Shown one piece after another: positions 39,702 through 58,543 of a DNA stretch of 64,000 nucleotides. Position 1 is the stretch's first letter; each line of letters starts with the position of its first letter. The notes under the pieces are model-generated. The model worked only from the letters and a program-made list of their open reading frames with translations, searched no databases and was not told where the DNA came from. Position numbers and translations under genes: made by a program. The stretch is from Pseudomonadota bacterium (GTDB taxonomy: Bacteria > Pseudomonadota > Alphaproteobacteria > Reyranellales > Reyranellaceae): NCBI GenBank assembly GCA_018240695.1, contig JAFEFH010000002.1, positions 1 through 64,000 on the forward strand, given 5' to 3'.

Positions 39702-39835
39702 GACGATGGTCTTAAGACGTAGTGATATGTACTGCAACTTATGAGACGCGACGTTATAGCGGCCCCAGCGGGATATTTGCAGTTGACCCGCCAAGAAACT
39801 TGAGGCGATATCCGCAACAATCAGGGGACGCAATT

Positions 39836-40393
39836 TTGCAGACAAGCGCGCGTGATCTTTCGTCGCAAATCGTCTTGCTCGAGCGAGACGGCCATTACTT
39901 TTTTTACCAGCCCGCTTTTGGCCTCATCGCGTCGGGAGATGACGTGGCGAGCGCTTATCAGAAGTTTGGAGAGGCACAGCGCCTTTATCTGAATGACGTG
40001 CAGCGTGCAGGCCTCGAGCTTCCGACAGCGCAGGGGATCCGGCAGGCGGCGGGGGTAGCAGTCCATCGTAGCGCTGCCGCCGAGATCTGGTTGTTCGCGG
40101 CAAAATTCGGTTTGGCGGTGGTGCTGCTGGGTGTGGCGGGTTCTGTCGCAGTAAGTGCGCTCTCGGGCGCTCTTGCCAGTGCAGCGCAAGGAGTGTCGAA
40201 AGCGTTCGCGGGCTTGAGTTCCATTACCTTGTCGGATGTCGTCACGAAGTCAGACGACATCGTGCGCGATATCAAGACACTTCCGGAGAGCCGGAAAGAG
40301 GACTTGCGTCGCAACGTGGGCGAGATATCGCGGCAACTGACGCCGATCGTCGAAGCCTGGCGCAATCCACCTGCATCAGCCGATCCAAGGTAA
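39836..40393 (+). CDS. Small protein with a repeated N-terminal module and one membrane helix
   Basis: This 185-residue product is of unknown family. The first 60 residues form a motif (V-L-x5-G-H-Y-F-F-Y, then GLIASGDDVASAYQKFGEAQRLYL) that recurs in the 85-residue protein at 42306. One strong hydrophobic segment follows (WLFAAKFGLAVVLLGVAGSVAV), then a mixed helix and a charged C-terminus. TTG 39836 is proposed because GGGGA lies about 8 bases upstream; longer in-frame starts reach into the divergent promoter. It sits 9 bases before the GT-C-like gene, so the two may be one operon. It could be a subunit or regulator of that enzyme. Confidence 0.65.
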   Translation: MQTSARDLSSQIVLLERDGHYFFYQPAFGLIASGDDVASAYQKFGEAQRLYLNDVQRAGLELPTAQGIRQAAGVAVHRSAAAEIWLFAAKFGLAVVLLGVAGSVAVSALSGALASAAQGVSKAFAGLSSITLSDVVTKSDDIVRDIKTLPESRKEDLRRNVGEISRQLTPIVEAWRNPPASADPR

Positions 40394-43495: not shown

Positions 43496-43670
43496 TTGGT
43501 CCTACACATCTGAGGAATGCTGGTTGTAGGGCGTTGCTAGCATAGGCGGTCCGACGGTCGCAATTGGCCGAACAGTCCTCGAATGGCCTTTGAGGACGAT
43601 ATGAGATACTAGGAGGTTACCCAAATCGTGCCAGAGCCGAATCTTGCATAAGTTACGAATTTTGCTGCGC

Positions 43671-44654
43671 ATGCTGAGAAATCGCCTGCTTTCGTCGAAT
43701 CCGATGTTGCGAAGTTCGCACACGAGCATGCTCGAGCGGGTTGTCTTCGTGCTGAACTTTTTTCCCCCCTACAACCTGGCCTGCTGGCTCTGGATTAGGC
43801 TGTGCACCCGGCTGGCGCCAAGCGCGGCGTTCCCTGGCCGGGCCTCATGGTGGTTGATGCAGCGGGCTTTCCTGTTCGGCGGGTTGCGCCACCTAAGCCC
43901 CGAGGACAGGACCGCTTTCGCCAAGGCGATCGTTGTTCCGGCCCTGGCTCGCACGTCGCCGGCCATCGAAAGCGACCCCGCAACGCGCGCTTCGGTCGCC
44001 GAGTTGTCGGCGCGTGGCTTTGTTGCCCTTGGTCCGCTCCTTTCATCCGCCGATGCGAAAGCGGCCGTAGACTATTTCTGCAGTCAGGACGGGTACGCGT
44101 CGCAAACTCCCCTGCAAAGCGACGGCGTTCCGCGCAAGTGCGACCCGCAGAAACTTCTTGGGGAAGGGCAGGAGCGGTATTTTTGCTTCTCGTCCCAGAC
44201 TTCGCTGGCTTGCCCTCAGGTTGCCGATCTTCTGAGCGATGGGCGCTTGCGGAAGATCGCAGCTGGCTATCTCGGCTTTACGCCAGTCATGTACAGCGTG
44301 AATACCATCGTAACGAACGAAGGCAACGATGCGCACTATGTGATGCGCATGCATCGCGACCAGGATGCTTTTGCCTGCGTTACGTTCTTCGTCTGCTGGA
44401 CGGCTGTGGCCGCCAGGAATGGCGCCACGATCTATGTTCCGCGCTCGCACGTCTCGAGCGACGTCGATGTCTCCCGGCCTACGTATCTCGAAGGAAATGC
44501 GGGCGACGTGTTCTGCGTCGACACTTTCGGGCTACACTCCGGCAACCGGGAGGTAACTGGCCCGCGATTTGCGACGTGGATTCGATTCGGCTCGGCGCCG
44601 AATCTCGGCACGGTTCAGGACCCCGATCTCGTGCCAGACCATCAGTTTGCCTAG
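43671..44654 (+). CDS. Phytanoyl-CoA dioxygenase (PhyH)-like Fe(II)/2-oxoglutarate oxygenase
   Basis: This 327-residue protein has the PhyH facial triad H228-x-D230 (MRMHRDQDAF) and H289 (LHSGN), with R299 (GPRF) as the 2-oxoglutarate anchor. The N-terminal 70 residues are hydrophobic and Arg-rich (FPPYNLACWLWIRL), and may be a membrane-associated helix. The substrate could be a lipid or a sugar. TTG 43644 is an alternative start giving 9 more residues. The Rieske gene follows 14 bases later, so the two iron enzymes are probably co-expressed. Confidence 0.8.
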   Translation: MLRNRLLSSNPMLRSSHTSMLERVVFVLNFFPPYNLACWLWIRLCTRLAPSAAFPGRASWWLMQRAFLFGGLRHLSPEDRTAFAKAIVVPALARTSPAIESDPATRASVAELSARGFVALGPLLSSADAKAAVDYFCSQDGYASQTPLQSDGVPRKCDPQKLLGEGQERYFCFSSQTSLACPQVADLLSDGRLRKIAAGYLGFTPVMYSVNTIVTNEGNDAHYVMRMHRDQDAFACVTFFVCWTAVAARNGATIYVPRSHVSSDVDVSRPTYLEGNAGDVFCVDTFGLHSGNREVTGPRFATWIRFGSAPNLGTVQDPDLVPDHQFA

Positions 44655-44668
44655 AAGCCGCTCTGCCT

Positions 44669-45598
44669 ATGTCTTCAAATCAGTCCTTCTTCGATCCTCG
44701 CCTCGTCGGCATTGACGGGGCTGCCTTCCTGGACCCGGCAAAGCTGGAAGAAGCACTTTTGCGCCTGATACCGCGGGCCCACATCTCGAAAGGCCACTTC
44801 ACCTACCCCAGCCGAGCCGAACTCCGCGACCTCGTCTGGAACCATATGGACCAAAACCACAGGCCATTTATCCATCGAACCTACGGGGAAGCCGCGCGCC
44901 TGTTCATAGATCCTCATGCCAGCTTTTCGTTGACCCGTTACGGCCGGTGGCCAATCGCGATTCCCGTGTTCGACGGATATTTTCGCGAGAACGGCTTCTA
45001 TCAGGTGATGGTGCTGTTCGGCCTGCTGGTTGTCGTCAACATAATCGAATGCAACAAGGGGGACGACGGCACGAGAATGGACGTCAGTTGGGTGGTGGCA
45101 TCGCATCGCTGGATGCGCTTTCTCCATCCCATGCTCAGCCGGAAATTTCAGCGGCTTAACGATGTTCAGAATCGCGAGGATGACCCGATACGGGATCGAC
45201 GGGTGGCGCTGCGTGCCGCCAACTATCGATTTGCCACCGACGCGCCGGATTTCCTCAATTCGAATGCCATCGGCAACAATGTCGAGTTTCCTGCATTCGC
45301 CGGGAAGCATTCGATTTCAATCAAGGACCTCCCCGAAGCGGTGCTTCATCGGACAGAGGTCGGTGATCGTGCCTATATTCTGCGACGTTCGGGACAGCAA
45401 CTCGAAGTGTGGCCCGGTACCTGCCCGCACGAGGGAGCTATGCTCGGGGCCGGCGACGTCGTGGGCAAGCTTGTGCGATGCCCCTGGCACGGTCTGGAGT
45501 TCGGGCCGCGACGTTTCGGTCCGGGTGCCGGCAAAGCCACGCTGTGCGGCGCTCTTTTGGAATTCAGTGGAGACGCCCTGACCATCGGGCCGGTATAG
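44669..45598 (+). CDS. Rieske iron-sulfur protein with N-terminal oxygenase-like domain
   Basis: This 309-residue protein has a C-terminal Rieske [2Fe-2S] domain: C252-P-H254 and C271-P-W-H274 with the usual spacing. The N-terminal part (1-210) has N58-x2-D61-x2-H64-x4-H69, the mononuclear-iron motif of Rieske oxygenases, and WVVASHRWMRFLHP, which resembles an SRPBCC-type barrel. The domain order is the reverse of normal ring-hydroxylating oxygenases. Together with the PhyH-like neighbour it suggests two oxidation steps on one glycan or lipid product. ATG 44669 is clear. Confidence 0.78.
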   Translation: MSSNQSFFDPRLVGIDGAAFLDPAKLEEALLRLIPRAHISKGHFTYPSRAELRDLVWNHMDQNHRPFIHRTYGEAARLFIDPHASFSLTRYGRWPIAIPVFDGYFRENGFYQVMVLFGLLVVVNIIECNKGDDGTRMDVSWVVASHRWMRFLHPMLSRKFQRLNDVQNREDDPIRDRRVALRAANYRFATDAPDFLNSNAIGNNVEFPAFAGKHSISIKDLPEAVLHRTEVGDRAYILRRSGQQLEVWPGTCPHEGAMLGAGDVVGKLVRCPWHGLEFGPRRFGPGAGKATLCGALLEFSGDALTIGPV

Positions 45599-45625: not shown

Positions 45626-46192
45626 ATGCATGACCTTCTGCTCTATTTTTGCGTGGTCGCGATCAGCAGTGCCGTCTTCCTGCCGCTGCACATCGTTCTC
45701 AGCCGCGCACGGCGCGGCGGGCCGCTCGTGACGGCGCTGGGCGTGAGCATCGCACTATCGGCGGTGGCGGGAGGTGCTTTCGGCGCGTTCGTCATCGGGG
45801 GGAGTTTTTCTTCATCCCCGGTCCTGTTGGTGGCCAGTGTAGGAGGGGCTCTCACTTTTGCGGGCTTCGCAGGAGTTTATGCCCTGATCCTGCCGATCAG
45901 CGTCGATCGTTCGTTGTCCGCTCACATCGTCAGCTTGCTTTATGCCTCGCCCGGCGGGCGGATCAGGGAAGCAGAGCTGTTTCGCCTTTACACGCACAGT
46001 GCGATTCTGGGCAAAAGGCTGCGCGAGTGCGAGCAGTCGCGCATTCTCGAGAAGCAGGGCGATGAGTTGGTTGTCACGGCCAAGGGGCGCCGTATCGCAT
46101 CGATCTATTTCACGCTCGACCGCTTAATGCATACCGGCGCGATGATCGCACCCGCCGGCGAGCGGTCTCCATCCCCCTCCAACAAAGCGTAG
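45626..46192 (+). CDS. Small membrane protein with C-terminal winged-helix-like domain (first of three)
   Basis: This 188-residue protein has three or four hydrophobic helices (1-100) and then a cytosolic domain of about 80 residues: LYASPGGRIREAELFRLYTHSAILGKRLRECEQSRILEKQGDEL (split by eye into helix-helix-wing), ending KGRRIASIY. Two further proteins with this layout are encoded at 53848 and 54345. All three lie next to a UPF0104-like transporter gene (46211 or 54842). The winged-helix-like domain might sense lipid-linked sugar or bind nucleic acid. No annotated family is recognised. Confidence 0.65.
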   Translation: MHDLLLYFCVVAISSAVFLPLHIVLSRARRGGPLVTALGVSIALSAVAGGAFGAFVIGGSFSSSPVLLVASVGGALTFAGFAGVYALILPISVDRSLSAHIVSLLYASPGGRIREAELFRLYTHSAILGKRLRECEQSRILEKQGDELVVTAKGRRIASIYFTLDRLMHTGAMIAPAGERSPSPSNKA

Positions 46193-46210
46193 CCGGGAAG
46201 AGGGCGGGCA

Positions 46211-47188
46211 GTGTCATCGACTATCTTGCGATTGGCGGCCGGCCTGCTGTTGCTTGGCGGGCTATTCTATTTCGGATTAATCGATCTTGGCGTGTTACGG
46301 ACTGCGCTGCACTATCCAGCGACCCTGGCGTTCGCCACGTTTGTTTCGCTCCTGGCAATTCCGACGGCCGCATTTCGCTGGCAGCTGCTGCTACGTTCGC
46401 AGGCACTGAATCTTCGCCTCGTCGATACCGTTCGGATTGCCGCCATCTCCACATTCTTCGGCACGTTTCTGCCGGGGGCAGTGGGAGGAGACATCATCAG
46501 GATCGTCTACATTCATCGAGCGTCGTTCGGGCGCCGGACCGGTGCCTATATGTCGATCCTGGTCGACCGGTTGATAGGCTTCGCCGCGTTGATGATCTAC
46601 GGCATCGTGGTCACGCTGTGCCGGCCATCCGGCGGTTACCACTCGCTCGAGTACGCCTTGCTGCTGTTCGCCTCCGGATTTGTGACGAGCATCGCGATCG
46701 TACTGGTGCTTGGCGACCGGGCTTTACGAATTATCAACGCGCTGTTTACGGGGCGCTGGCACAAGATCGCCGAAATGATCGAGCGGGTGGCCCTGGCGCT
46801 CCGCCAATATCGGCTCGCCTGGCCCGCGCTGGCTTATTCCCTCGGTGTCTCCATTCTGGTGTCGGGAATGCAGATCGGGGCGATCGTGATCATCGCCGTC
46901 TTCATGAATTTCGGTGGCCTGAGCACTGCGGACTACACCATCGCCGCAGCCTATGGTCTAATGGTGAATAACGTCCCGCTCACGCCCGGCGGATTGGGGG
47001 TGGGCGAAAGCGCTTTTGCATCGCTCTGCGTCGCATTGGGTGGGGTAGCCAGCGTCCCGTACGGCACGATATTCCTGCTCTTCCGGTGCGTGCTGATGAT
47101 ATCGGTGCTTCCCGGTCTGCTGGTCTATCTCATCTATCCTGATCGAGCTCGCCTTCTGGAGAAGGTCGATACGGTCGGCAGGGATTGA
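46211..47188 (+). CDS. Lysylphosphatidylglycerol synthase TM-like (UPF0104/AglD-type) membrane protein
   Basis: This 325-residue protein has about 8 hydrophobic helices and the family motifs AFRWQLLLR, FFGTFLPGAVGGDIIR, DRLIGFAAL and NNVPLTPGGLGVGE. Such proteins are proposed flippases or acceptors for lipid-linked sugars in glycan assembly. GTG 46211 is the start. It follows the small winged-helix membrane protein by 18 bases. A second copy at 54842 has the same motif set, so the island encodes two such transporters. Confidence 0.82.
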   Translation: MSSTILRLAAGLLLLGGLFYFGLIDLGVLRTALHYPATLAFATFVSLLAIPTAAFRWQLLLRSQALNLRLVDTVRIAAISTFFGTFLPGAVGGDIIRIVYIHRASFGRRTGAYMSILVDRLIGFAALMIYGIVVTLCRPSGGYHSLEYALLLFASGFVTSIAIVLVLGDRALRIINALFTGRWHKIAEMIERVALALRQYRLAWPALAYSLGVSILVSGMQIGAIVIIAVFMNFGGLSTADYTIAAAYGLMVNNVPLTPGGLGVGESAFASLCVALGGVASVPYGTIFLLFRCVLMISVLPGLLVYLIYPDRARLLEKVDTVGRD

Positions 47189-47307
47189 AGGCGTCCCTTT
47201 TCCCGAAATAGTGGTAAATTGATTGCGGTCGGCAGTGTCCCATTCTCGGCCGGGTTCGGGAGGCGGTCATTCTTCGACAAGGCGAGGCGATCCAGCGCAA
47301 GGACGAA

Positions 47308-48780
47308 ATGCAGAATATTGCCGACCAGATCCGCGAGCGTCTCGGCTCCGACCAGCCGCTGGTTTTTGTCTCTGGAAACTTCAACATTCTTCATCCAGGT
47401 CACTTGCGCCTGCTGCGCTTTGCCGCCGAAGCGGGAGGCGCGCTCGTGGTTGGCGTCAACTCCGACGACACGATCGGCGTGACGATGCCCCAAGTAGACC
47501 GGCTGCAGGGTGTGCAGGCGATCAGCGCCGTGGTCGAGGCGGTGGCGCTCACCGAACCACCCGAGCGGTTCGTGGCGCGCCTGAAGCCGGAAATCGTGAT
47601 CAAGGGCAAGGAATACGCCGATCGCTTCAATGCCGAGCAAGGCATCGTCGACAGTTATGGCGGCCGGCTGATGTTCAGTTCGGGTGAGGTTCGCTTTGCC
47701 TCCAAATTGCTGCTCGAGCGGGAATATTCGGAGACGCAGTTCTCCGTCATTCGCAAACCAACGGACTATCCGACCCGCAATGGCTTTCGCATCGCCGACC
47801 TCGAGCGCATTCCGCCGCAGTTCGCAAACCTGAATGTCGTGGTCGTCGGCGACTTGATCGTCGACGAATATATCAGCTGCGATCCAATCGGCATGTCACA
47901 AGAAGATCCGACGATTGTCGTGACGCCGATCGAAAGCAGGCTATTCGTCGGAGGGGCAGGGATCGTGGCTGCCCATGCTCGAGGTCTTGGGGCCAAGGCG
48001 CGCTACATCGCCGTCTCGGGCGAAGACGCTAGCGCGAAATTCGCGCGTGACGAGCTGGAGGCCAACGGCGTGGACATCTCTCTCTTCGTCGATCCGGCGC
48101 GACCGACGACCTTGAAGCAGCGGTATCGGGCGAGCGGCAAGACGCTCCTCAGGGTTAATCACCTGCGTCAGCACGCCATCGAGGCCGATCAACAAAGCCG
48201 AATCTATGATGCGGTGGACGCCGCCCTGGGCGATGCGGATATCCTTCTGTTTGCCGATTACAACTACGGTTGTCTGCCCCAGCCGCTGGTCGATGCGCTC
48301 GCGAAGCGGGCAAAGTCGCGGGGCGTCATGATGGCGGCCGACAGTCAGGCATCGTCGCAAATTTCCGACATCTCCCGCTTCAAGGACATGGCGCTGATCA
48401 CGCCGACAGAACGCGAAGCGCGGCTGGCATTGCGGGATCATGAGGCCGGTCTCGTCGTGCTGGCTGATCGGTTGCAGCGTGCGGCGGAGGCGACAAACGT
48501 CGTCGTCACTCTTGGTGCCGAAGGTCTGCTGATCCACGCGCCTGACCAGGGGGCTTACCGGACAGAACGGCTTCCCGCCTTCAACACTGTTCCCAAGGAT
48601 GTGGCAGGCGCGGGCGACAGCTTCTTCATTTGCACGGCTATGGCGCTGAGGCTGGGTGTCGATATCTGGACAGCGGCCTATCTGGGATCGCTCGCGGCGG
48701 CGTGCCAGGTCTCACGTGTCGGCAACATGCCGCTCAGTGCGGCCGAGCTGATGACCGAGATCGGCTATCCCGCACCCTGA
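47308..48780 (+). CDS. HldE-like fusion with inverted order: nucleotidyltransferase then PfkB kinase
   Basis: This 490-residue protein has two domains. Residues 1-160 are a cytidylyltransferase-like domain with GNFNILH29-PGH32 (HxGH). Residues about 170-490 are a PfkB/ribokinase domain with VVVGDLIVDEYISCDPIG, GGAGIVAAHA and the catalytic VAGAGDSFF (G434-A-G-D437). Bacterial HldE has the same two activities (heptose-7-P kinase and heptose-1-P adenylyltransferase) in the opposite order. ATG 47308 has AAGGA upstream. It should act on a heptose or related sugar phosphate. The next gene encodes a second nucleotidyltransferase. Confidence 0.82.
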   Translation: MQNIADQIRERLGSDQPLVFVSGNFNILHPGHLRLLRFAAEAGGALVVGVNSDDTIGVTMPQVDRLQGVQAISAVVEAVALTEPPERFVARLKPEIVIKGKEYADRFNAEQGIVDSYGGRLMFSSGEVRFASKLLLEREYSETQFSVIRKPTDYPTRNGFRIADLERIPPQFANLNVVVVGDLIVDEYISCDPIGMSQEDPTIVVTPIESRLFVGGAGIVAAHARGLGAKARYIAVSGEDASAKFARDELEANGVDISLFVDPARPTTLKQRYRASGKTLLRVNHLRQHAIEADQQSRIYDAVDAALGDADILLFADYNYGCLPQPLVDALAKRAKSRGVMMAADSQASSQISDISRFKDMALITPTEREARLALRDHEAGLVVLADRLQRAAEATNVVVTLGAEGLLIHAPDQGAYRTERLPAFNTVPKDVAGAGDSFFICTAMALRLGVDIWTAAYLGSLAAACQVSRVGNMPLSAAELMTEIGYPAP

Positions 48781-48796
48781 TCGTTGGCGGCATCGC

Positions 48797-49507
48797 ATGC
48801 GGGCACTTCTTTTGGCGGCTGGACTGGGAACGCGGCTTCGTCCACTTACGGACCGGGTTCCCAAATGTCTGGTGCCGATCCACGACAGGCCTTTGCTGTC
48901 GTACTGGCTGGACGCGCTGCTGAGGGACGCACGCATCGATCGCGTTCTGATCAATACGCACTATTTGCACGAGCAAGTTGAGGCCTTCGTGGTGCAGTCG
49001 CGCTGGCGCGATCGTGTCGACCTCGTGCACGAGACTGAACTACTGGGCACCGGCGGGACGATCTTGGCGAACCGAAGCTACTTTGGCGAAGGTCCCTTGT
49101 TCGTGGCTCATGCCGACAACCTGACCGACGCGTCGCTCGGGACGCTGTTCGATGCGCATTTTGCGGCTCCCGCCGATGTCCTGGCGACGCTGCTTGCCTT
49201 TCGCACGAAAAGCCCCACCACATGCGGTATTCTCGAGCTCGATGATGCGCGCCGCATTGTGGGTTTCCACGAGAAGGTGGCGAACCCACCCGGGAATCTG
49301 GCCAGTGGCGCCGTCTACGTGTTCGCGCCAGAAGTGCTAAAGCTGATCGAGGCGAGAGGCCATCGCTTCGTCGATCTGTCGACGGAGATCATGCCGGGCC
49401 TGCTGGGCCGGATGATCGCGATCGAACATGCCGGCTTCTTCATGGACATTGGAACGCCCGAGGCTCTTGAGCAAGCGCGGCGTGCGTTCCGCGCCCCATC
49501 TGGATAA
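48797..49507 (+). CDS. NTP_transferase-family nucleotidyltransferase (HddC-like)
   Basis: This 236-residue nucleotide-sugar pyrophosphorylase has LAAGLGTRLRPLTD with the KCLVPI loop, then TELLGTGGTIL, VAHADNLTD and GFHEKVANPP. The length fits the HddC/mannose-1-phosphate guanylyltransferase-like group with no extra LbH domain. The likely product is GDP- or CDP-linked sugar. In combination with GmhA and the HddA-like kinase it suggests GDP-D-glycero-D-manno-heptose. It follows the HldE-like gene by 16 bases. Confidence 0.83.
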   Translation: MRALLLAAGLGTRLRPLTDRVPKCLVPIHDRPLLSYWLDALLRDARIDRVLINTHYLHEQVEAFVVQSRWRDRVDLVHETELLGTGGTILANRSYFGEGPLFVAHADNLTDASLGTLFDAHFAAPADVLATLLAFRTKSPTTCGILELDDARRIVGFHEKVANPPGNLASGAVYVFAPEVLKLIEARGHRFVDLSTEIMPGLLGRMIAIEHAGFFMDIGTPEALEQARRAFRAPSG

Positions 49508-49539
49508 GCCCTCTCGATCAGCCTATAATTCGACGTAAC

Positions 49540-51561
49540 ATGGAGCGAAAGAAGAGAATCTATCTGGCAGACCTGACCCACAAGGGATTGGTGCTGTCGT
49601 CGAACGTCTTCCCGCTCTCCATCGGGCTGATCGGGGGGTACTTGCTCGAGCAACGGCCCGGCCAGGCCGATGTCCAGCTGTTTAAGTATCCTGAGGATTT
49701 CAGTGCTGCACTCGAAAAGCAGGTGCCCGATATCGTTGGGTTCGCCAACTATTCGTGGAATTTCCATCTCGAGTATCAGTACGCCAAGCTAATCAAGAAG
49801 CTATGGCCCAAGACTGTCGTCGTGTTCGGCGGGCCGAATTACGGCTTGGAAGCCGAAGAGGTCGCGGAATTCTGGAAGCACTATCCCGAGATCGATTTCA
49901 ACATCGTGCGCGAAGGCGAGAGGGCGTTTGTCGACCTTTTCGACTCGCTGACCGAAGCTGGCTTCGATGCAGAGGCACTCCGGCGTAGCCTGCGGCCATT
50001 GCCCAACTGCCACTATCAGGTCGATGGTGAACTGGTGTGCGGCCCCGATCTGCCGCGGCTAGACTTGGAGACGCTGCCTTCACCCTATCTCATGGGATTG
50101 ATGGACAAGTTCTTCGACGAGAACCTGATCCCGATGATCCACACGACGCGCGGTTGCCCGTTCAAGTGTGCGTTCTGCACCGAGGGCGCCGCTTACTACA
50201 ATATCGTCGAACAGCGGATGAACTCCTTCGAGGAGGAATTGCACTACATCGCGAGCCGGGTGCGCGGTCCGCGTGATCTGTTCATCAGCGATGCCAACTT
50301 CGGCATGTTCAAGCCGGATATCGAGAAGGCACGGATCCTGGCGGACTGCCAGAAGCGCTACAATTTCCCGAAATACATCCACGTGTCGACCGGTAAGAAC
50401 CAGAAGGAGAGGGTGATCGAGATCGCGCAGATGCTCGACGGCGCGCTCAATATGGCCGCGTCTCTGCAGTCGACCGATCCAACCGTGCTGGCGAACGTGG
50501 AGCGCTCGAATATCTCACTGGAGAAGTTGAGCGACGTCGGCCTGAAGGCCAACAAGGTGGACACCGGAACGTACAGCGAGTTGATCCTCGGTCTGCCCGG
50601 GGACAGCCTTGCCGCTCATCGCCAGTCCTTGCGGGATACAGTAGAGGCGAATTTCGACAATATTCGCATGTATCAGCTGATCATGTTGCCGCAGACAAAG
50701 TTGAATACACCGGACATGAGGCGCAGGTTCGCGATGGCCTCCAAGCACCGCATCATGCCGCGGTCCTTCGGCCGATATTCGTTGGCGGGGCACGATTTCA
50801 TCGCCATCGAGTCCGAGGAAATTCTGATCGAGCATTCGACTTTGTCGTTCGCCGATTATACCGCCTGCCGCGAGATGGATTTGACGGTCGAGATCCTGCA
50901 CAACGGCAAGGTCTATGCCGAGGTCCAGGGGCTGTGCCGCTCTCTCGCGCTGTCGTGGTTCGACTTCATCATGCGCTTCTATGATAAGCGCCGGCTGTAC
51001 ACGCCGGGCATCACGGCGATGTACGACGAATTCTCCAAAGGTATGTCGGCGCGCCTCTGGGATGACCGGCAGTCCCTCGAACGCGCGGTGGTCGAGAATT
51101 TCGACGAGGTGCAGAACAACGAGCGCGGCACGAACGAGATGTCGATGGGCAAGGCAACCGCCTTCTTCGACCTATTCCGCGAGATCAACGACATCCTCTT
51201 TGCCGAGATGAAATCCTGGCTGGCGAAGCTTGGCCGGCTCGATGCCATGACGGAACAATATATCGACGAACTCTGCCGCTTCAGCTGCATGCGCAAAGCC
51301 GACCTGACGAACTATGAAGCCGTACTAAGGGATGCGTTCCACTTCGATATGAAGGCGCAGGAGCGCGCCGACTTCTCCGCATCGGCCGGCGAGACGAGGC
51401 TTGGCTCGGAGCAGACCTTCGTCGTGGCCCACACGCCTAGTCAGCGAGAGACGCTGTCTGCCTATACCAAGGAGTTCGGGAGCAGCCACGACGGCTTGGG
51501 CAAGATGCTGATGCGTTACCCGCACGTCCATCGCATGTTCCGCCGGGCCGAGGCGGCCTGA
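49540..51561 (+). CDS. B12-binding-domain-type radical SAM protein
   Basis: This 673-residue protein has a Rossmann-like N-terminal domain (about 1-140) of the B12-binding type, but the canonical DxHxxG histidine is not obvious. A radical SAM domain follows with C206-x3-C210-x2-C213 (TTRGCPFKCAFC) and later GTYSELILGLPGDS. The C-terminal 250 residues are mostly helical and unnamed. Such enzymes perform C-methylation or other radical rearrangements of inert carbons, including on sugars and lipids. The neighbours are sugar-nucleotide genes, so a sugar substrate is likely but not shown. Confidence 0.82.
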   Translation: MERKKRIYLADLTHKGLVLSSNVFPLSIGLIGGYLLEQRPGQADVQLFKYPEDFSAALEKQVPDIVGFANYSWNFHLEYQYAKLIKKLWPKTVVVFGGPNYGLEAEEVAEFWKHYPEIDFNIVREGERAFVDLFDSLTEAGFDAEALRRSLRPLPNCHYQVDGELVCGPDLPRLDLETLPSPYLMGLMDKFFDENLIPMIHTTRGCPFKCAFCTEGAAYYNIVEQRMNSFEEELHYIASRVRGPRDLFISDANFGMFKPDIEKARILADCQKRYNFPKYIHVSTGKNQKERVIEIAQMLDGALNMAASLQSTDPTVLANVERSNISLEKLSDVGLKANKVDTGTYSELILGLPGDSLAAHRQSLRDTVEANFDNIRMYQLIMLPQTKLNTPDMRRRFAMASKHRIMPRSFGRYSLAGHDFIAIESEEILIEHSTLSFADYTACREMDLTVEILHNGKVYAEVQGLCRSLALSWFDFIMRFYDKRRLYTPGITAMYDEFSKGMSARLWDDRQSLERAVVENFDEVQNNERGTNEMSMGKATAFFDLFREINDILFAEMKSWLAKLGRLDAMTEQYIDELCRFSCMRKADLTNYEAVLRDAFHFDMKAQERADFSASAGETRLGSEQTFVVAHTPSQRETLSAYTKEFGSSHDGLGKMLMRYPHVHRMFRRAEAA

Positions 51562-51566
51562 CGTTT

Positions 51567-52280
51567 GTGACGGCGCGCCGGATCGTCATCACCGGGGGCA
51601 CCGCGGGTATCGGACTTGCGACGGCACACCGCCTGCGCGCGGCCGGACACGGCGTCTTCATTTGCGGGCGCGATCCGTCTCGGCTTGAAAAGGCGATCGA
51701 GGAACTTGGACGGCAGGCGGGCACGGCGCCGGTGGGAGGCGCGCTTTGCGACGTGCGCGAACTCTCCCAAGTGCGGGAGATGATTGGAGTGGCCTCGCGC
51801 CAAATGGGTGGTTTGGACGGGCTTGTCAACAATGCCGGCTCGGCCTTCATCACGGAGTTTGGCGATATCACGCCGTCGATGTGGAGCGACATTATCGCGA
51901 CCAACCTGACCGGCGTCTTCAACTGCTGCCATGCGGCGCTGGACGCCTTGAAGAAATCGGGAAAGCAAGGCGCCGCAGACATTGTGAACGTCGGCAGCCG
52001 GTCTGGGCGCTACGCCTTCCGTGGAGGCGTCGGATATAATACCACGAAGTTCGGGCTTCAGGGGCTGACGGAAGCGATGTTCCTTGATCTCAGTCGCTTC
52101 AATATCCGCGTGGGCCTAGTTGCGCCCGGAACGGTGTCGACCGGTCTCGGCGGAACGGCTCCCGCGGATTGGCACCTGCGGCCGGAAGATGTGGCCGAAG
52201 CGGTTGCCGCCATGATCGGTGCGCGAGACGGCGCGGCCCTGAATTGGGTTGAATTGCGCCCGGCGCGGCCGCCGTTATGA
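51567..52280 (+). CDS. Short-chain dehydrogenase/reductase
   Basis: This 237-residue classical SDR has TGGTAGIG (cofactor), NNAGSAF, and the catalytic S-R-S... with Y-N-T-T-K (YNTTK). The start is GTG 51567, 5 bases after the radical SAM stop. Its substrate may be the product of the radical SAM enzyme. It overlaps the next SDR gene by 4 bases. Confidence 0.87.
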   Translation: MTARRIVITGGTAGIGLATAHRLRAAGHGVFICGRDPSRLEKAIEELGRQAGTAPVGGALCDVRELSQVREMIGVASRQMGGLDGLVNNAGSAFITEFGDITPSMWSDIIATNLTGVFNCCHAALDALKKSGKQGAADIVNVGSRSGRYAFRGGVGYNTTKFGLQGLTEAMFLDLSRFNIRVGLVAPGTVSTGLGGTAPADWHLRPEDVAEAVAAMIGARDGAALNWVELRPARPPL

Positions 52281-53086
52281 TGTCGAGATTCGACCTCCAC
52301 GGCCGCAAGGCCGTGGTCACCGGCGGCGCCCAGGGTATCGGCGCGGGCATCGTACGCGGGTTGGCGGAAGCGGGCGCAACGGTGACGATCGTCGACCGGC
52401 AATCCGACAAGGCGCGGGCGCTTGCGGAAGCATCCGGCCCGGGGCTGGTCGTGGTGACGGCCGACATCGGATCGGCGGAAGGATGCCGGCAAGCGATCAG
52501 CCAGGCGCGCGATGCGATGGGCGGGCTCGACATTCTCGTGAACAACGCGGCCCCTGCTCGGAACAGGGAGATGATCGGTCGGATTGCCGATGTCGACTGG
52601 GCCGATCACGAATCGATCGTACTCCACGCTGCGGCAGCCATAGCTGAGTCGGCGTTGGATGATCTGGTCGCTTCGGGGCACGGTGCGATCGTGAACGTTT
52701 CATCGATTCTTGCCACGTCGATTGGCGCCGACCAGAGTTCGCTCGCGTACCATGTATCTAAGGCCGGCCTCAACCAATTCACCCGTTGGCTCGCCGTGCG
52801 CTGTGGCGCGTCAGGCGTGCGCGTGAACGCGGTTGCGCCAGGTCTTGTCGATCGCGACGTCGGTCACAAGCTTACAGCTAATCCGGTAAACAAGAAGATC
52901 GTCGATTCTGTCGTCCCTCTGCGGCGAGCCGGGACTGCCCGCGACATTGCCGATGCCGTGATCTTTTTGGCATCGGACGCCGCGGCCTATGTCACAGGCC
53001 AGGTTCTGACCATCGATGGCGGTCTTGGCATCAACGAGGTGTTTGGCGCTTCGTTACGTGCGTACACGGCCGCCGGCGAGCGGTAG
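52277..53086 (+). CDS. Short-chain dehydrogenase/reductase
   Basis: This 269-residue SDR (or 268 if it starts at the second ATG, 52280) has TGGAQGIG, NNAAPARN, the catalytic Ser in VSSILA, and Y-H-V-S-K (YHVSK). The C-terminus VTGQVLTIDGGLG is typical of the 3-oxoacyl reductase-like group. It is coupled to the previous SDR through overlapping ATGA. Two reductases in tandem suggest two reduction or oxidation steps on one intermediate. It converges on the GT2 gene at 53093. Confidence 0.88.
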   Translation: MMSRFDLHGRKAVVTGGAQGIGAGIVRGLAEAGATVTIVDRQSDKARALAEASGPGLVVVTADIGSAEGCRQAISQARDAMGGLDILVNNAAPARNREMIGRIADVDWADHESIVLHAAAAIAESALDDLVASGHGAIVNVSSILATSIGADQSSLAYHVSKAGLNQFTRWLAVRCGASGVRVNAVAPGLVDRDVGHKLTANPVNKKIVDSVVPLRRAGTARDIADAVIFLASDAAAYVTGQVLTIDGGLGINEVFGASLRAYTAAGER

Positions 53087-53087
53087 C

Positions 53088-53114
53088 CTTCGTCAGGACA
53101 GGCGGCTGACGAAG
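53088..53114. other. 9-bp inverted repeat between convergent SDR and GT2 genes
   Basis: CTTCGTCAG (53088-53096) and CTGACGAAG (53106-53114) are exact reverse complements with a 9-base loop. The hairpin begins 2 bases past the SDR stop and covers the last codons of the minus-strand GT2 gene. It has no T tract. A terminator role is possible but weak. Confidence 0.35.
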
Positions 53115-53842
53115 TCGATCTGTTTTCTCTTCGGCAAGGATCCGAAACGCTGGCGGTCTGTGATGTAGACGGCAACCAACAAGCGGATGAAGGAGCCCAC
53201 AACTTCCGTTAGCGCGCGCAGGGTAACTGTGCCACGCGCTTTCGGGCCGCCCTGCAGATAGCCCGGTATCTCGGCAAACGTGCAGCCCATTCGCAGCAGC
53301 TTGACGTTCAACTCCGAGATGATGCTGAAGCGCCGTGCGCGCAGCGCGGCTTCGCGCGCCCGTTCGGTAGGCCAGATTCCGGGCGCGTTGATATAGACCA
53401 CATAGATCCCAAAGAAGATCATGTAAGCCGCTTGGTATATGGTCGACAGGATGTTCCGGAACAGGTTGCGCTGTTCCTTGTTCAGAGGCGACATCAGGAT
53501 GATGTCGGCTTCGTTTCGGAAGATCAGCATCATCAGGATGGTGCTCTTAGAGACGTCGTTGTCTCCCGGGACCACCATGAAAGACGGCGCGGTGGCGGCG
53601 GCGATGCCGGCGCGGATCGAAGCCCCAAGGCCAAAGTTTTCCGGATTGTGAACGGGACGGATCGTGCGATCCGCCGCGGCGAGGCCGTCAATGGTTGCGC
53701 CGGTAGAGTCTGTGCTGCCGTCATTCACGATGACGATCTCGAACGTGTCGAGCTTTGCGTCGACTGCTGCGGCGCGGATCGTGGCGACGGTGGGCGCGAC
53801 ATTGTCCTGCTCGTTGAACGCCGGCACGATGAACGTGACCAT
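53093..53842 (-). CDS. Family 2 glycosyltransferase, polyprenol-phosphate type
   Basis: This 249-residue GT2 enzyme has FIVPAFNEQDNV, IVIVNDGSTDSTG, VHNPENFGLGASIRAGI, and GDNDVSK at the DxD position. Two membrane helices lie near 115-135 and after 210. It probably transfers a sugar from a nucleotide to undecaprenyl phosphate. The start is ATG 53842, with GTG 53848 as an alternative; the latter overlaps the upstream TAG (TAGTG), so coupling is possible. It is the last gene of a four-gene minus-strand run with two winged-helix membrane proteins and a UPF0104-like protein. Confidence 0.85.
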   Translation of the reverse strand: MVTFIVPAFNEQDNVAPTVATIRAAAVDAKLDTFEIVIVNDGSTDSTGATIDGLAAADRTIRPVHNPENFGLGASIRAGIAAATAPSFMVVPGDNDVSKSTILMMLIFRNEADIILMSPLNKEQRNLFRNILSTIYQAAYMIFFGIYVVYINAPGIWPTERAREAALRARRFSIISELNVKLLRMGCTFAEIPGYLQGGPKARGTVTLRALTEVVGSFIRLLVAVYITDRQRFGSLPKRKQIDFVSRLS

Positions 53843-53847
53843 TGGCA

Positions 53848-54339
53848 CTAGGCTCCGAACTCCGACGTTTTGCCAATCAGCAGCATCTTTAGAAAGCGAA
53901 AGAGACCCGCGATTGTTTTAAGCCCGGGGGATACCACGTGGAGGCGGCCGCCGCGCTCGACGACAGCACCGCCATGGCGCAGCCGGTCCAAACGCAGGCC
54001 CAGCAGCTTCCGGTCGTTATAGAGCGTCGCAAGAGCCGGACGCGAAACGTGTCCGCCAGCAGCCTGGATCGCGCCGAGGATCTTCACTCTCAGGGAGGAC
54101 TCGAGCGACTGCACCAGATTGAGGAAGATGAACCACCAGGTGGCGTAGGTGAGCAGCGCGATCGCGACTGTGGGCCACTCGATACCCGGCAGCATCCACA
54201 GGAGCAACGCGGTCGCGCAAAGGCCAGCGAAGAGGCTTGCCCGGTAGGAGGCAACGCGTCCTGCGCCCAGCCGCGATGCTGCTACGTCGCCCGCCAGAGC
54301 CAGGACCATCCCGAAGCCCGCCACGAACAGACCGATCAT
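53848..54339 (-). CDS. Small membrane protein with C-terminal winged-helix-like domain (second of three)
   Basis: This 163-residue protein has three hydrophobic helices followed by SLRVKILGAIQAAGGHVSRPALATLYND and KLLGLRLDRLRHGGAVVERGGRLHV, which line up with the same regions of the proteins at 45626 and 54345. The C-terminal LKTIAGLFRFLKMLLIGK may be a further amphipathic helix. It lies between a GT2 gene and its own paralogue, so the three proteins form a lineage within this island. Confidence 0.65.
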   Translation of the reverse strand: MIGLFVAGFGMVLALAGDVAASRLGAGRVASYRASLFAGLCATALLLWMLPGIEWPTVAIALLTYATWWFIFLNLVQSLESSLRVKILGAIQAAGGHVSRPALATLYNDRKLLGLRLDRLRHGGAVVERGGRLHVVSPGLKTIAGLFRFLKMLLIGKTSEFGA

Positions 54340-54344
54340 GCGCG

Positions 54345-54845
54345 TCAGCCCGCCTCGCTGGGTTGGCCGCCCCGCAGGCGCCGGTAGGCGTCGCCGAGGG
54401 ACAGAAGCGGTCCGATCTTCCCGTTCAGGCTGAGCTCGTCGCCATCGACGGCAATTTCGCCGACGGCAATCAGGGCGCCGAGGCGGCTTTGCACGAATGG
54501 GTGACGAGCGACGAAGCGATCGAAGTCCGACACGGGCATGCCAGCCTCGCCGCAGGCTTCGATGGCATTGACCAGAGCAAGTGTCGGACTATCGTAGATC
54601 ACGCCGTTCATGACGAGCGCATAAGCAAAGCCGAAGCTAAAGGCGAGAATGAAGGCGACAAGCCCGTCGACGAAGGAATAGGGTGCTTGCGGGGCCGGGA
54701 CGACAGCGAAAACGAGGCCCATTGCCGCCAGCAGAAGCAGCGGCAGCGCCGGCAGGCGCCACGCAGGCTTCAACAGCCTCAGCACGAGGGCATGGGCGGC
54801 CATTCCGAGCAATGCCGCGGCAACTCCGACTAAAAGCGCGTTCAT
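54345..54845 (-). CDS. Small membrane protein with C-terminal winged-helix-like domain (third of three)
   Basis: This 166-residue protein has four hydrophobic helices (LLVGVAAALLGMAAHALVL, LPLLLLAAMGLVFAVV and others) and a C-terminal domain: SPTLALVNAIEACGEAGMPVSDFDRFVA, FVQSRLGALIAVGEIAVDGDELSL. The alignment with the two relatives covers both halves. ATG 54845 is selected because it overlaps the upstream UPF0104 stop by 4 bases. Function unknown. Confidence 0.65.
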   Translation of the reverse strand: MNALLVGVAAALLGMAAHALVLRLLKPAWRLPALPLLLLAAMGLVFAVVPAPQAPYSFVDGLVAFILAFSFGFAYALVMNGVIYDSPTLALVNAIEACGEAGMPVSDFDRFVARHPFVQSRLGALIAVGEIAVDGDELSLNGKIGPLLSLGDAYRRLRGGQPSEAG

Positions 54846-55849
54846 TCCGTGACCGGCAAAGACCGTGACTCGCTGGGCTTGCTCTTGATGGCGTCGATGC
54901 CGCTGCGCAAATCCGTACGATTGAGCAGCCAAGGCAGGATACCCACGATGCCGATGATGACCGTTAGCACACGCATGGCGAGGAATACCGTGCCGTAGCG
55001 GACGTCCGCCGTCGGATGCGTCAATGCCACCGCGACGCGTGCAAACGCTGCTTCACCCACACCGATGCCGCCGGGCGTAAGTGGCAGGGAGTTGGCGATC
55101 GTCGACCATGCACCGGCAATACCGTAGCCAATCCACGAAAGCTGGGTGAAGCCCATCGCATGCCCAAGCGAGAAGAGGGCCAGCAGAATGAGGATGTATT
55201 GCACCACGGAGACGACCAGTGCGGCAAAAAGTCGGCCGGGCTGGCTCCAATAGGCGCGCAGCGCGGTCAAAAGCTCTTTGGCAATCCGCGCCAGGGCGGG
55301 GCCGACGGGCTTGGGCAGGCGTCCGACAAGGTTGACCGAACAGTCTCCGGATTTGACCGCGATGATCAGACCGGCGGCACCCACGACGAAGAAGGTGGCG
55401 ACCGCCCATTCGAGCTGAGTGGCGTAGGCGGACGGGAGGCCCGGCAGCATGAGCACGCCGAGCAATAGTAGCGCGACCAGCCCCGACAAGCGGTCGACCG
55501 GCAGGCTGAACGTGAGGTGGCTAAGCGAACCGCCGACGGACCGGTAGGCCAATGCCAGCCGCACGAGATCGCCGCCATGGGCGCCCGGCAGGAAGGTGTG
55601 GAAGAACAGGCTTATGAAGGTCGCGTTGATCGACCATGCCAGCGTCAGGGTGAAGTTCAATCCACGCAGCAGGAGCCACCAGCGCCATGCCGCGATTGGC
55701 ACGGTCGCCAGGATGCAGGCAAAGGCAAGGAGAAGCAGACCCGGCCGGTCGGCTGCTTTAGCGAGGACGCCGAGATCAATCGAACCGTACTTCACCAGAA
55801 GCACGAGACCCGCGACGCCAACTGCAAGTTTTATCAAAAATCCGCGCAT
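54842..55849 (-). CDS. Lysylphosphatidylglycerol synthase TM-like (UPF0104/AglD-type) membrane protein, second copy
   Basis: This 335-residue protein has the same architecture as that at 46211: AAWRWWLLLRGL, FFHTFLPGAHGGDLVR, DRLSGLVAL and NSLPLTPGGIGVGEAAF. It has about 8 membrane helices. It is the first gene of the minus-strand run with two winged-helix membrane proteins and a GT2 gene, so the transport and transferase steps may be co-regulated. A 163-base divergent region separates it from 56013. Confidence 0.82.
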   Translation of the reverse strand: MRGFLIKLAVGVAGLVLLVKYGSIDLGVLAKAADRPGLLLLAFACILATVPIAAWRWWLLLRGLNFTLTLAWSINATFISLFFHTFLPGAHGGDLVRLALAYRSVGGSLSHLTFSLPVDRLSGLVALLLLGVLMLPGLPSAYATQLEWAVATFFVVGAAGLIIAVKSGDCSVNLVGRLPKPVGPALARIAKELLTALRAYWSQPGRLFAALVVSVVQYILILLALFSLGHAMGFTQLSWIGYGIAGAWSTIANSLPLTPGGIGVGEAAFARVAVALTHPTADVRYGTVFLAMRVLTVIIGIVGILPWLLNRTDLRSGIDAIKSKPSESRSLPVTE

Positions 55850-56012: not shown

Positions 56013-56951
56013 ATGAAAATCTTCGTTAGCGGCGCCTGCGGCTTCAAGGGCTCGGTTCTGGTTCCCAAGCTGCTGGCCCTCGGTCATCAGATTGTGGCGT
56101 TCGATATCCAGTGGTTCGGCAACCATCTCCCGCCCCATCCGAGTCTGAAGGTCGTCAAAGGCGATGTGCGTGCGATTCGCGCGGCCGACCTGCAGGGCGT
56201 CGACGCGATCATCCACCTTGCTTCGGTGGCGAACGATCCGTGCGGCGATCTCGACCCGAAGCTCACGTGGGAAATCAGCGCCCTGGCGACGATGAAGCTC
56301 GCCGAAGAGGCTATCCGACAAGGCATCAAGCGCTTCATCTACGCGTCTTCGGCCAGTGTCTATGGTGTCAAGGAAGAGGACCAGGTCACTGAAGATCTGC
56401 CGCTTGATCCGATCAGCGAATACAACAAGACCAAGATGATCGCCGAGCGTGTTCTGCTGAGCTACGCCTCCGACCTCGTCGTGCAGATGGTCCGGCCCGC
56501 GACAGTGTGCGGGACCAGTCCGCGCATGCGCCTCGACGTCTCGGTGAACATGCTGACGATGCAGGCTCTGACGAACAGCCGCATCACGGTGTTCGGCGGC
56601 GACCAGGTGCGGCCGAACATCCACATCGACGACATCACCGACCTCTACATCTATTTGCTCGATCACCCGGAGATCGTGGGCGTCTACAACGCCGGCTTCG
56701 AGAACATCTCGATTCGCGAGATTGCCGAGCGTGTTGTGCGCATCATCCCGGCGGAGATCGTGATCACGCCGTCCAACGATCCGCGTTCCTACCGGGTCAA
56801 TTCGGACAAGCTGCTGGCGACCGGCTTCCGCCCGCGCAAGACGGTTGATGACGCCATCAGCGAGATCGTTGCCGCCTTCCAGCGCGGTACCCTGAAAAAC
56901 GAGGACCAGTGGCACAATCTGCGCTGGATGCAGAAGGAAATGGCGCGATGA
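56013..56951 (+). CDS. NAD-dependent epimerase/dehydratase (extended SDR)
   Basis: This 312-residue protein has the cofactor motif GACGFKG (7-13), HLASVANDP, the Ser in ASSASVYG (111-118) and Y137-x3-K141. The RPATVCGTSPRMRLD and RPNIHIDDITD segments are seen in UDP-glucose/GDP-sugar epimerases. It would isomerise or dehydrate a nucleotide sugar. It is the first gene of the six-gene operon that ends with the second E1 pair. Its stop overlaps the gmhA-like ATG (ATGA). Confidence 0.85.
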   Translation: MKIFVSGACGFKGSVLVPKLLALGHQIVAFDIQWFGNHLPPHPSLKVVKGDVRAIRAADLQGVDAIIHLASVANDPCGDLDPKLTWEISALATMKLAEEAIRQGIKRFIYASSASVYGVKEEDQVTEDLPLDPISEYNKTKMIAERVLLSYASDLVVQMVRPATVCGTSPRMRLDVSVNMLTMQALTNSRITVFGGDQVRPNIHIDDITDLYIYLLDHPEIVGVYNAGFENISIREIAERVVRIIPAEIVITPSNDPRSYRVNSDKLLATGFRPRKTVDDAISEIVAAFQRGTLKNEDQWHNLRWMQKEMAR

Positions 56952-57532
56952 ACGCAGCGGCCGATCCGGTCGTCGCGGAGTTTGCCGATTATTCGAGCCG
57001 CCTGCGGGCAGTGCTCCAGTCGGCTGACTACGCACCCGTCGCTTCCCTCGCTCGCGCGATGCAGGATTGCTGGCGCGAGGAGCGGTGCCTCTATCTGTGC
57101 GGCAACGGCGGCAGCGCCGGCAACGCCGTGCATCTCGCCAATGATTTCGTCTATGGCATCGCCATGGGTAACGGCGTCGGCATGCGAGCGCATGCCTTGT
57201 CGGCCAATACCTCGGTGTTGACCTGCCTTGCCAACGATCTCGACTATTCGGAGATCTTTTCGGCCCAACTCAAGGTCTTTGGGCGGCGCGGAGACGTACT
57301 GGTCGCCTTGTCCGGCAGCGGCAACTCGCCGAACATCCTGAAGGCGATCGGTGCGGCCAAGGAACTCGGCATGCCGACGTACGCTGTGCTGGGTTACGGC
57401 GGAGGCAAGGCCAAGGATATGGTCGACGTGCCGATCCATTTCGCAGTGAGCGATATGCAGATCGCCGAGGATCTGCAGCTCGTGGTCGGCCACATGGTTA
57501 TGCAATGGCTGCACCGAAATCGTAAGAACTGA
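56948..57532 (+). CDS. gmhA: Phosphoheptose isomerase (sedoheptulose 7-phosphate isomerase)-like
   Basis: This 194-residue SIS-domain protein is of GmhA type. CGNGGSAGNAVHLANDF (51-67) holds the metal-ligand position H62 and, where many GmhA have Glu, D66. SGSGNSPNILKA binds the phosphate, and the C-terminal DMQIAEDLQLVVGHMV has the family His. It makes D-glycero-D-manno-heptose 7-phosphate. The partner kinase (34899) and nucleotidyltransferases (47308, 48797) lie elsewhere in the island. The Glu-to-Asp change in the metal site may alter metal use. Confidence 0.85.
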   Translation: MNAAADPVVAEFADYSSRLRAVLQSADYAPVASLARAMQDCWREERCLYLCGNGGSAGNAVHLANDFVYGIAMGNGVGMRAHALSANTSVLTCLANDLDYSEIFSAQLKVFGRRGDVLVALSGSGNSPNILKAIGAAKELGMPTYAVLGYGGGKAKDMVDVPIHFAVSDMQIAEDLQLVVGHMVMQWLHRNRKN

Positions 57533-57544
57533 CGGCACCGCTCT

Positions 57545-58543
57545 GTGGCCGACCCCGCGCTCTTCGTTGTCATTGGCAGCAATTCCTTCACAGGTGCTGG
57601 GTTTGTCCGGTATCTCCTGGAGAAGGGCCATCCTGTCATAGGCACCAGCCGGTCCGATGAACCTCACGCCGCACTCCTGCCTTACCGGTTCGACGGCGTG
57701 CCAGCTGGTTTTCAGTTCCATCGTCTCGACCTGAACAACGACCTTGAGGCGATCGTGGCGCTCCTCGAGAAGGAGCGTCCGGCTTATGTCGTCAATTTTG
57801 CTGCCCAAAGCATGGTGGCGGAGAGCTGGGCCAATCCCGACCACTGGTTCATGACCAATGTCGTGTCGACCGTCCGACTGCACGATCGCTTGCGACACAT
57901 GAAGTTCCTCGAACGTTACGTCCATGTAACGACGCCTGAAGTTTACGGCAACACGTCGGGAGACGTCCGCGAGGACGCACCGTTCAATCCCAGCACACCG
58001 TACGCGGTGTCACGTGCGGCCGCCGACATGAGCCTGCGCAGCTTTCATACGGCCTATGGCTTCCCTGTCGTCTACACGCGTGCGGCAAACGTCTATGGCG
58101 CGGGCCAGCAACTCTACCGCATCGTTTCGCGAACGATCCTGTACGCCCGGCTCGGCCGCAAGCTGCAGCTGCACGGTGGCGGCATGTCGGAGCGGTCATT
58201 CATCCACGTCAAGGACGTAGCCGACGCGACCTATCGCATTGCGCGCGACGGCAAGAACGGCGAGGCCTATCACATCTCGACCAACCGGATCATCAGCATC
58301 CACGACCTCGTCGCGATGATTTGCGCGCAGCTCGGTGTCGACATGAAGTCTGTCGTCGAGATAGTGGGTGAGCGCCTCGGCAAGGACGCCGCTTACCGGC
58401 TCGACAGCGGCAAGCTTCGACGCGAACTCGGCTGGTCGGATGCGATATCGCTCGAGAGCGGTATAGCCGAGACTGCCGCATGGGTGGATCGTCATCTCGA
58501 AGATCTTGGGCGTCTGCCCGCATCCTACGTCCACAAACCTTGA
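57545..58543 (+). CDS. Extended SDR, dTDP-glucose/GDP-mannose dehydratase-like, with YxxxR
   Basis: This 332-residue protein starts GSNSFTGAGFV (cofactor; the second glycine spacing is unusual), continues NFAAQSMVAESW, and has T130-P-E132-V-Y-G as in dehydratases. It has Y153-x3-R157, so the catalytic Lys is replaced by Arg. RAANVYGAGQQLYRI and RSFIHVKDVADA are typical of the sugar-nucleotide 4,6-dehydratases. It may dehydrate a heptose or hexose nucleotide. The start is GTG 57545. The next gene begins 7 bases after its stop. Confidence 0.82.
   Translation: MADPALFVVIGSNSFTGAGFVRYLLEKGHPVIGTSRSDEPHAALLPYRFDGVPAGFQFHRLDLNNDLEAIVALLEKERPAYVVNFAAQSMVAESWANPDHWFMTNVVSTVRLHDRLRHMKFLERYVHVTTPEVYGNTSGDVREDAPFNPSTPYAVSRAAADMSLRSFHTAYGFPVVYTRAANVYGAGQQLYRIVSRTILYARLGRKLQLHGGGMSERSFIHVKDVADATYRIARDGKNGEAYHISTNRIISIHDLVAMICAQLGVDMKSVVEIVGERLGKDAAYRLDSGKLRRELGWSDAISLESGIAETAAWVDRHLEDLGRLPASYVHKP

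Follow-up and report, generated by a model that had tools for sequence, protein, structure and literature searches.

The flipping of polyprenyl-phosphate-linked sugars is an open step in the assembly of bacterial surface glycans, for which GtrA and the UPF0104 proteins are proposed flippases without direct proof. A 64,000-nucleotide stretch of a Reyranellaceae draft genome (assembly GCA_018240695.1, contig JAFEFH010000002.1, positions 1 to 64,000; hereafter the window) raises the question of which other proteins may take part. It carries two loci, on opposite strands, in which three short genes encoding proteins here called P1, P2 and P3 stand beside UPF0104 genes. A preliminary description, made from the sequence alone, regarded these proteins as a new family of small membrane winged-helix proteins pairing with UPF0104 transporters, perhaps as a sensor or subunit for lipid-linked sugar transport. 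We find that the three belong to one family, which tracks both candidate flippases and a lipid-sugar synthase of the GT2 type in many Pseudomonadota. In most loci with a tandem pair of members, the GT2 protein lacks C-terminal membrane helices; in a GtrA-linked clade, single members occur beside GT2 proteins that have predicted helices of their own.

P1, P2 and P3 as members of one family

Are the three proteins related at all? Pairwise BLASTP is too weak to tell (P1-P2, E-value 0.075; P1-P3 and P2-P3 not significant), and profiles were therefore used in its place. Compared with one another, profiles built from genus orthologues gave E-values of 5.8e-6 for P1-P2, 2e-6 for P1-P3 and 0.0022 for P2-P3. 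A hidden Markov model (HMM) was then built from family members found elsewhere, the orthologues of P1, P2 and P3 being excluded as well. This independent HMM matched P1 (9.6e-15), P3 (1.3e-9) and P2 (6.8e-8) across both the membrane and the winged-helix parts, and gave no other match with E<1 among the 548 open reading frames (ORFs) of the window and 548 reversed ones (1096 sequences). Judged from these profile comparisons, P1, P2 and P3 are homologous and form one family. A profile restricted to the GtrA/GtrB-linked clade described below matches P1 (2.4e-5) and misses P2 and P3, whose link to the family therefore depends on the broader profile.

The small proteins have no match above cut-off in Pfam, NCBIfam, PHROG or the PDB; their sub-threshold matches are to SLAC1, HVO_A0261_N, HemN_C and HTH_12, of which some are winged-helix domains. 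Searches of viral contigs, phages and plasmids returned zero viral or phage relatives and one Hirschia plasmid, and the literature searched, which left most subscription papers outside its coverage, holds no description of a family protein. Within the libraries and papers covered, the small proteins make up an undescribed family that is associated with machinery of a known kind. Ordinary parts of it are the UPF0104 and GT2 genes; the surprising parts are the extra conserved component and the rule of one versus two.

AlphaFold models of P1 and P2, made from 57 and 33 aligned sequences respectively, have mean predicted local distance difference test scores of 76 and 82.5 (about 89-97 in the winged helix of P1). 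Both display long N-terminal helices followed by the order H-E-H-H-E-E-H that is typical of a winged helix. In a Foldseek search of the PDB, which holds no sequence relative of the family with a solved structure, the top matches were mainly MarR/HxlR-type winged helices; their probability was high, the best E-values were 0.008 and 0.02, and none fell below 0.001. The models thus support a predicted MarR-like winged helix as the C-terminal domain of P1 and P2. The loop that follows the first helix carries positive residues, which suggests a cytoplasmic C-terminus.

These results uphold the preliminary description as to the kinship of the three proteins, the novelty of the family and the winged helix. 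All five ORFs that it listed exist, with one correction: P3 would start at the ATG at 54845 instead of the listed TTG at 54932, because this ATG overlaps the stop codon of the adjoining UPF0104 gene (as ATGA) and similarity to orthologues begins nearby. Its sequence motif was roughly right. All three proteins show the 'GD/GG-x-L' wing, and the single residue invariant across 23 diverse members is an arginine (R131 in P1, R116 in P2), usually within 'R-L-x5-G'.

Association with UPF0104, GtrB and GtrA

With which genes does the family travel? The source draft genome contains two PF03706 (UPF0104) genes, both touching a family gene. They score well above the gathering cut-off of 33.4 bits (106.7 for the gene at 46211, 92.5 for that at 54842), and their products are 35% identical to one another. 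Both are ordinary members of the UPF0104/LPG_synthase_TM/COG0392 group of predicted flippases, which includes the AglD C-terminus, the MprF flippase domain and GpgF, unlike the small proteins, which are not themselves PF03706 members. A broad profile detected the family in 8 of the 75 genomes of the taxonomic family (G000, G010, G020, G035, G049, G056, G057 and G062). All 8 carriers possess PF03706, versus 28 of the 75 genomes overall (hypergeometric 1.8e-4), and 10 of 11 family loci lie within 4 kilobases (kb) of a PF03706 gene, where 0.03 would be expected at random; these P-values are nominal, since the loci share ancestry and are not independent. Two pairings found afterwards are less exposed to this problem. 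In G056, recovered only by the broad profile, a tandem pair lies 2.5 kb from a PF03706 gene with no more than distant similarity to the UPF0104 genes of the window; in G869, from another taxonomic family, UPF0104 and two family members are contiguous, as in the window. The complete order UPF0104-P3-P2-GT2 is contiguous in three genomes.

A related clade was searched against genome contigs and yielded 109 relatives, 80 of which were kept; these are mostly from Alpha-, Beta- and Gammaproteobacteria, with one Sulfuricurvum record. A GT2 gene of the GtrB type was found at most 600 bases away in 72 of the 80 loci and GtrA in 67, frequencies that describe this clade only and not the whole family, because two of the fetching queries already adjoined a GT2 gene. 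In one locus a PF04138 match confirmed GtrA as such, and UPF0104 was undetected near all 80 relatives. Large multi-helix proteins, which might include a dedicated GT-C acceptor enzyme, are encoded near 28 of the 80 loci, as at 40403-42277 in the window; those scanned match no Pfam family.

Two simpler views of these partnerships were rejected. UPF0104 is not a universal partner, given that G257, G191, G317 and G136 have the family and no PF03706 gene. Nor do the small proteins stand in for GtrA in most of the family: GtrA is usually present too, as a separate neighbouring gene, and PF04138 gave zero matches among 23 family members.

The suggestion of a functional unit with UPF0104 is supported by the genome-wide counts and by G056 and G869. 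The suggested role in lipid-linked sugar transport points in a supported direction, although GtrB and GtrA are the commonest partners in other bacteria. The GT2 gene of the tandem loci, of the polyprenyl-phosphate-sugar synthase type, is a neighbour that the preliminary description did not mention.

One versus two family proteins and the GT2 membrane anchor

GtrB, ArnC and DPM1-type GT2 proteins load sugar onto polyprenyl phosphate (PMC4728340). From its sequence matches in the PDB (GtrB sll0501, E-value 1.5e-7; ArnC, 1.9e-5), the catalytic domain of the window GT2 is related to GtrB and ArnC; aligned with GtrB, it is without the two C-terminal membrane helices. Tandem pairs of family genes occur in 11 loci (the window, G062, G035, G056, G057, G160, where both candidate ORFs are family members, G669, G387, G695, G501 and G869). 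A GT2 gene stands beside or near the pair in all 11, and in 10 of them the protein stops short of the C-terminal pair of membrane helices seen in GtrB. UPF0104 is less constant in its distance: it touches the pair in the window, G062, G035 and G869, lies within about 3.5 kb in G056, G057 and G160, and is 8-10 kb off in G669, G387, G695 and G501, where the pair touches GT2. Among the GtrA-linked loci with a single family gene, all 74 GT2 proteins examined have 2-4 predicted helices, as counted by a simple hydropathy scan on modest numbers of proteins. This rule of one versus two is a sharp, testable prediction.

In a tree, the first and second members of G056 group with their G387/G669 counterparts, each position separately (96/97 and 95/93), so that the pair in these genomes is an old duplication. 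P2 groups with the second member of G057 (89/87).

A GT2 protein fused to a very large membrane part (about 1190 amino acids, 18-19 predicted helices) is encoded in G056 and G055 (L166:8845-13411 and L167:9624-14193). It directly follows UPF0104 in both genomes, and the winged-helix pair occurs only in G056.

Proposed function and alternatives

What might such proteins do? We consider it probable that the family members are accessory subunits of polyprenyl-phosphate-sugar synthase/flippase modules, serving to anchor or regulate them. P1, P2 and P3 would be small inner-membrane proteins, accessory to the making and flipping of polyprenyl-phosphate-linked sugars, with the winged helix serving as a protein-contact domain. 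At the tandem locus of the window, GT2, working at the cytoplasmic face, would attach a sugar to the lipid carrier, and UPF0104 would flip its product, or help to flip it. The P2/P3 pair probably supplies anchor and control, keeping GT2 beside the flippase, because this GT2 is without GtrB-type anchoring helices. A GT2 protein with membrane helices of its own is accompanied by one family protein, usually together with GtrA, and P1 would play the equivalent part for the first UPF0104 protein. The one-versus-two pattern is most simply read as follows: one family protein would act generally, in assembly or regulation, and a second would take the place of the absent anchor.

Two known systems offer comparisons. 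The three-component GtrA-GtrB-Gtr(type) periplasmic glycosylation system combines a GT2, a proposed flippase and a GT-C protein. Like it, the loci described here join a GtrB/ArnC-type GT2 and a flippase-like membrane protein in a single operon, and the majority of the new family's relatives are encoded within GtrB-GtrA operons. Unlike it, they have an extra conserved membrane winged-helix protein, undescribed in the papers found, and the window has UPF0104, no GtrA seen, and a GT2 without C-terminal membrane helices. For UPF0104 proteins, a flippase role in glycosylation pathways has been predicted (PMC5898192); flipping by the UPF0104 protein GpgF was not directly shown (PMC12713373).

The second comparison is with human dolichol-phosphate-mannose synthase, in which an anchorless enzyme is joined by two small membrane subunits. 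The C-terminal membrane domain of yeast Dpm1 performs the job of the Dpm3 subunit (PMC7728079). The likeness concerns the way of working only: an anchorless GT2 goes with two small membrane proteins, a self-anchored one with fewer. Unlike DPM2 and DPM3, the family has three helices and a winged helix, not two helices, and none of 23 members matches the Pfam DPM2 or DPM3 models. Tentatively, these loci might encode bacterial multi-subunit synthases resembling DPM1-DPM2-DPM3, in which a P2/P3 heterodimer would hold and control the helix-less GT2 and pass its product to the UPF0104 flippase, self-anchored GT2 proteins keeping one subunit and GtrA; this more specific version is possible, and we hold it with less confidence than the general role.

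Several observations weigh against an accessory-subunit role, in addition to the shared ancestry of the loci and the modest basis of the helix counts. P1 in G062 is 24 kb from PF03706, and G317 and G531 have no GT2 or UPF0104 profile match within about 6 kb of the family gene. In G056, GT2 forms part of a fusion with a large membrane protein even though a tandem pair is there. P1 of the window has no close GT2, the nearest being a weak match (3.7e-4) about 6 kb away at 38943-39923. With Rieske and UPF0104 genes as its adjacent neighbours, P1 is the least explained member.

The winged helix itself suggests another function. If it bound DNA while the membrane helices sensed lipid-linked intermediates, the proteins would be membrane-bound transcription regulators tuning expression of the glycan locus. 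MarR/HxlR-type regulators are indeed the fold neighbours, and the winged-helix domain of P2 is basic (charge +10, of which +4 in its helix 3). Unlike such regulators, however, the family members are joined to three membrane helices and have no MarR profile match; helix 3 is mostly neutral or acidic across 54 GtrA/GtrB-linked members (mean charge -0.6), and the P3 domain has a charge of -4. The third membrane helix of the P1 model continues straight into the winged helix, so that bound DNA would lie against the membrane, and the genes are embedded in an operon between flippase and transferase. We therefore regard a membrane-bound transcription factor as unlikely, and less likely than an accessory subunit.

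The proteins could instead serve the flippase alone, be it UPF0104 or GtrA, as its subunits or regulators, the proximity of GT2 being secondary. This would agree with the suggestion of the preliminary description and with P1, which in the window, G010 and G020 adjoins a UPF0104 gene but no GT2 gene. It fits poorly with G669, G387, G695 and G501, given the distance of UPF0104 from pairs that touch GT2, and with four loci (L047, L087, L097 and L114) in which GtrB adjoins the family gene and GtrA was undetected; we find it doubtful. Least probable is that the genes have no direct functional link and co-travel only through mobile glycan islands, as their patchy carriage (8 of 75 genomes) and the island character of the loci might suggest, against which stand their adjacency, their overlapping start and stop codons, their similar order across different families and the variety of PF03706 and GT2 subfamilies with which they pair.

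As a conserved and unannotated component, an accessory subunit of this kind would provide a handle for reconstituting the flipping step.

Gene content of the two loci

The plus-strand locus reads PhyH-like, Rieske, P1, UPF0104. The minus-strand locus reads UPF0104, P3, P2, GT2 and is tightly packed, with only a few bases between P3 and P2 and between P2 and GT2 (Table 1).

Table 1. Genes of the two family loci and of the neighbouring sugar-nucleotide blocks in the window
Feature	Position	Strand	Basis or remark
PhyH-like gene	starts at 43644	+	first gene of the P1 locus
Rieske-domain protein	44669..45598	+	PF00355; directly upstream of P1
P1, 188 amino acids, three predicted membrane helices and C-terminal winged helix	45626..46192	+	independent HMM, AlphaFold
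UPF0104/LPG_synthase_TM protein, partner of P1	46211..47188	+	PF03706, E 2.1e-30
HldE-like kinase/cytidylyltransferase	47308		Pfam
Nucleotidyltransferase	48797		Pfam
GT2, polyprenyl-phosphate-sugar synthase type	53093..53848 (likely start ATG 53842)	-	PF00535, E 7e-21
P2, 163 amino acids, three predicted membrane helices and C-terminal winged helix	53848..54339	-	GT2-proximal in the tandem pair
P3, about 166 amino acids, architecture as P1 and P2	54345..54845	-	UPF0104-proximal in the tandem pair
UPF0104/LPG_synthase_TM protein, partner of the P3-P2 pair	54842..55849	-	PF03706, E 4.3e-26
Epimerase	56013		sequence reading
SIS isomerase	56909		sequence reading
GMD-like	57545		sequence reading

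Sugar-nucleotide genes at 47308-49507 and 56013-58543 flank the tandem locus and look like a pathway to heptose-type sugar nucleotides; G062 and G035 keep this block. A B12-binding radical S-adenosylmethionine protein (49540-51561) travels with it in both genomes, its nearest NCBIfam model being a KedN5-type C-methyltransferase with a score far under the cut-off. The Rieske gene keeps company with the P1 clade elsewhere too, recurring near P1 in G010, G020, G035 and G049 (L029, L030, L031 and L032); together with the PhyH-like gene (43644-45598) it would represent an unexplained oxidative step adjoining a UPF0104 gene. The weak GT2-like ORF at 38943-39923 is a candidate partner of P1, and the multi-helix protein mentioned above also lies further off on that side. 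In G035 (L028:8146-9500) a transposase-like gene is found between a short-chain dehydrogenase/reductase (SDR) gene and GT2, leaving the order GT2-P2-P3-UPF0104 undisturbed.

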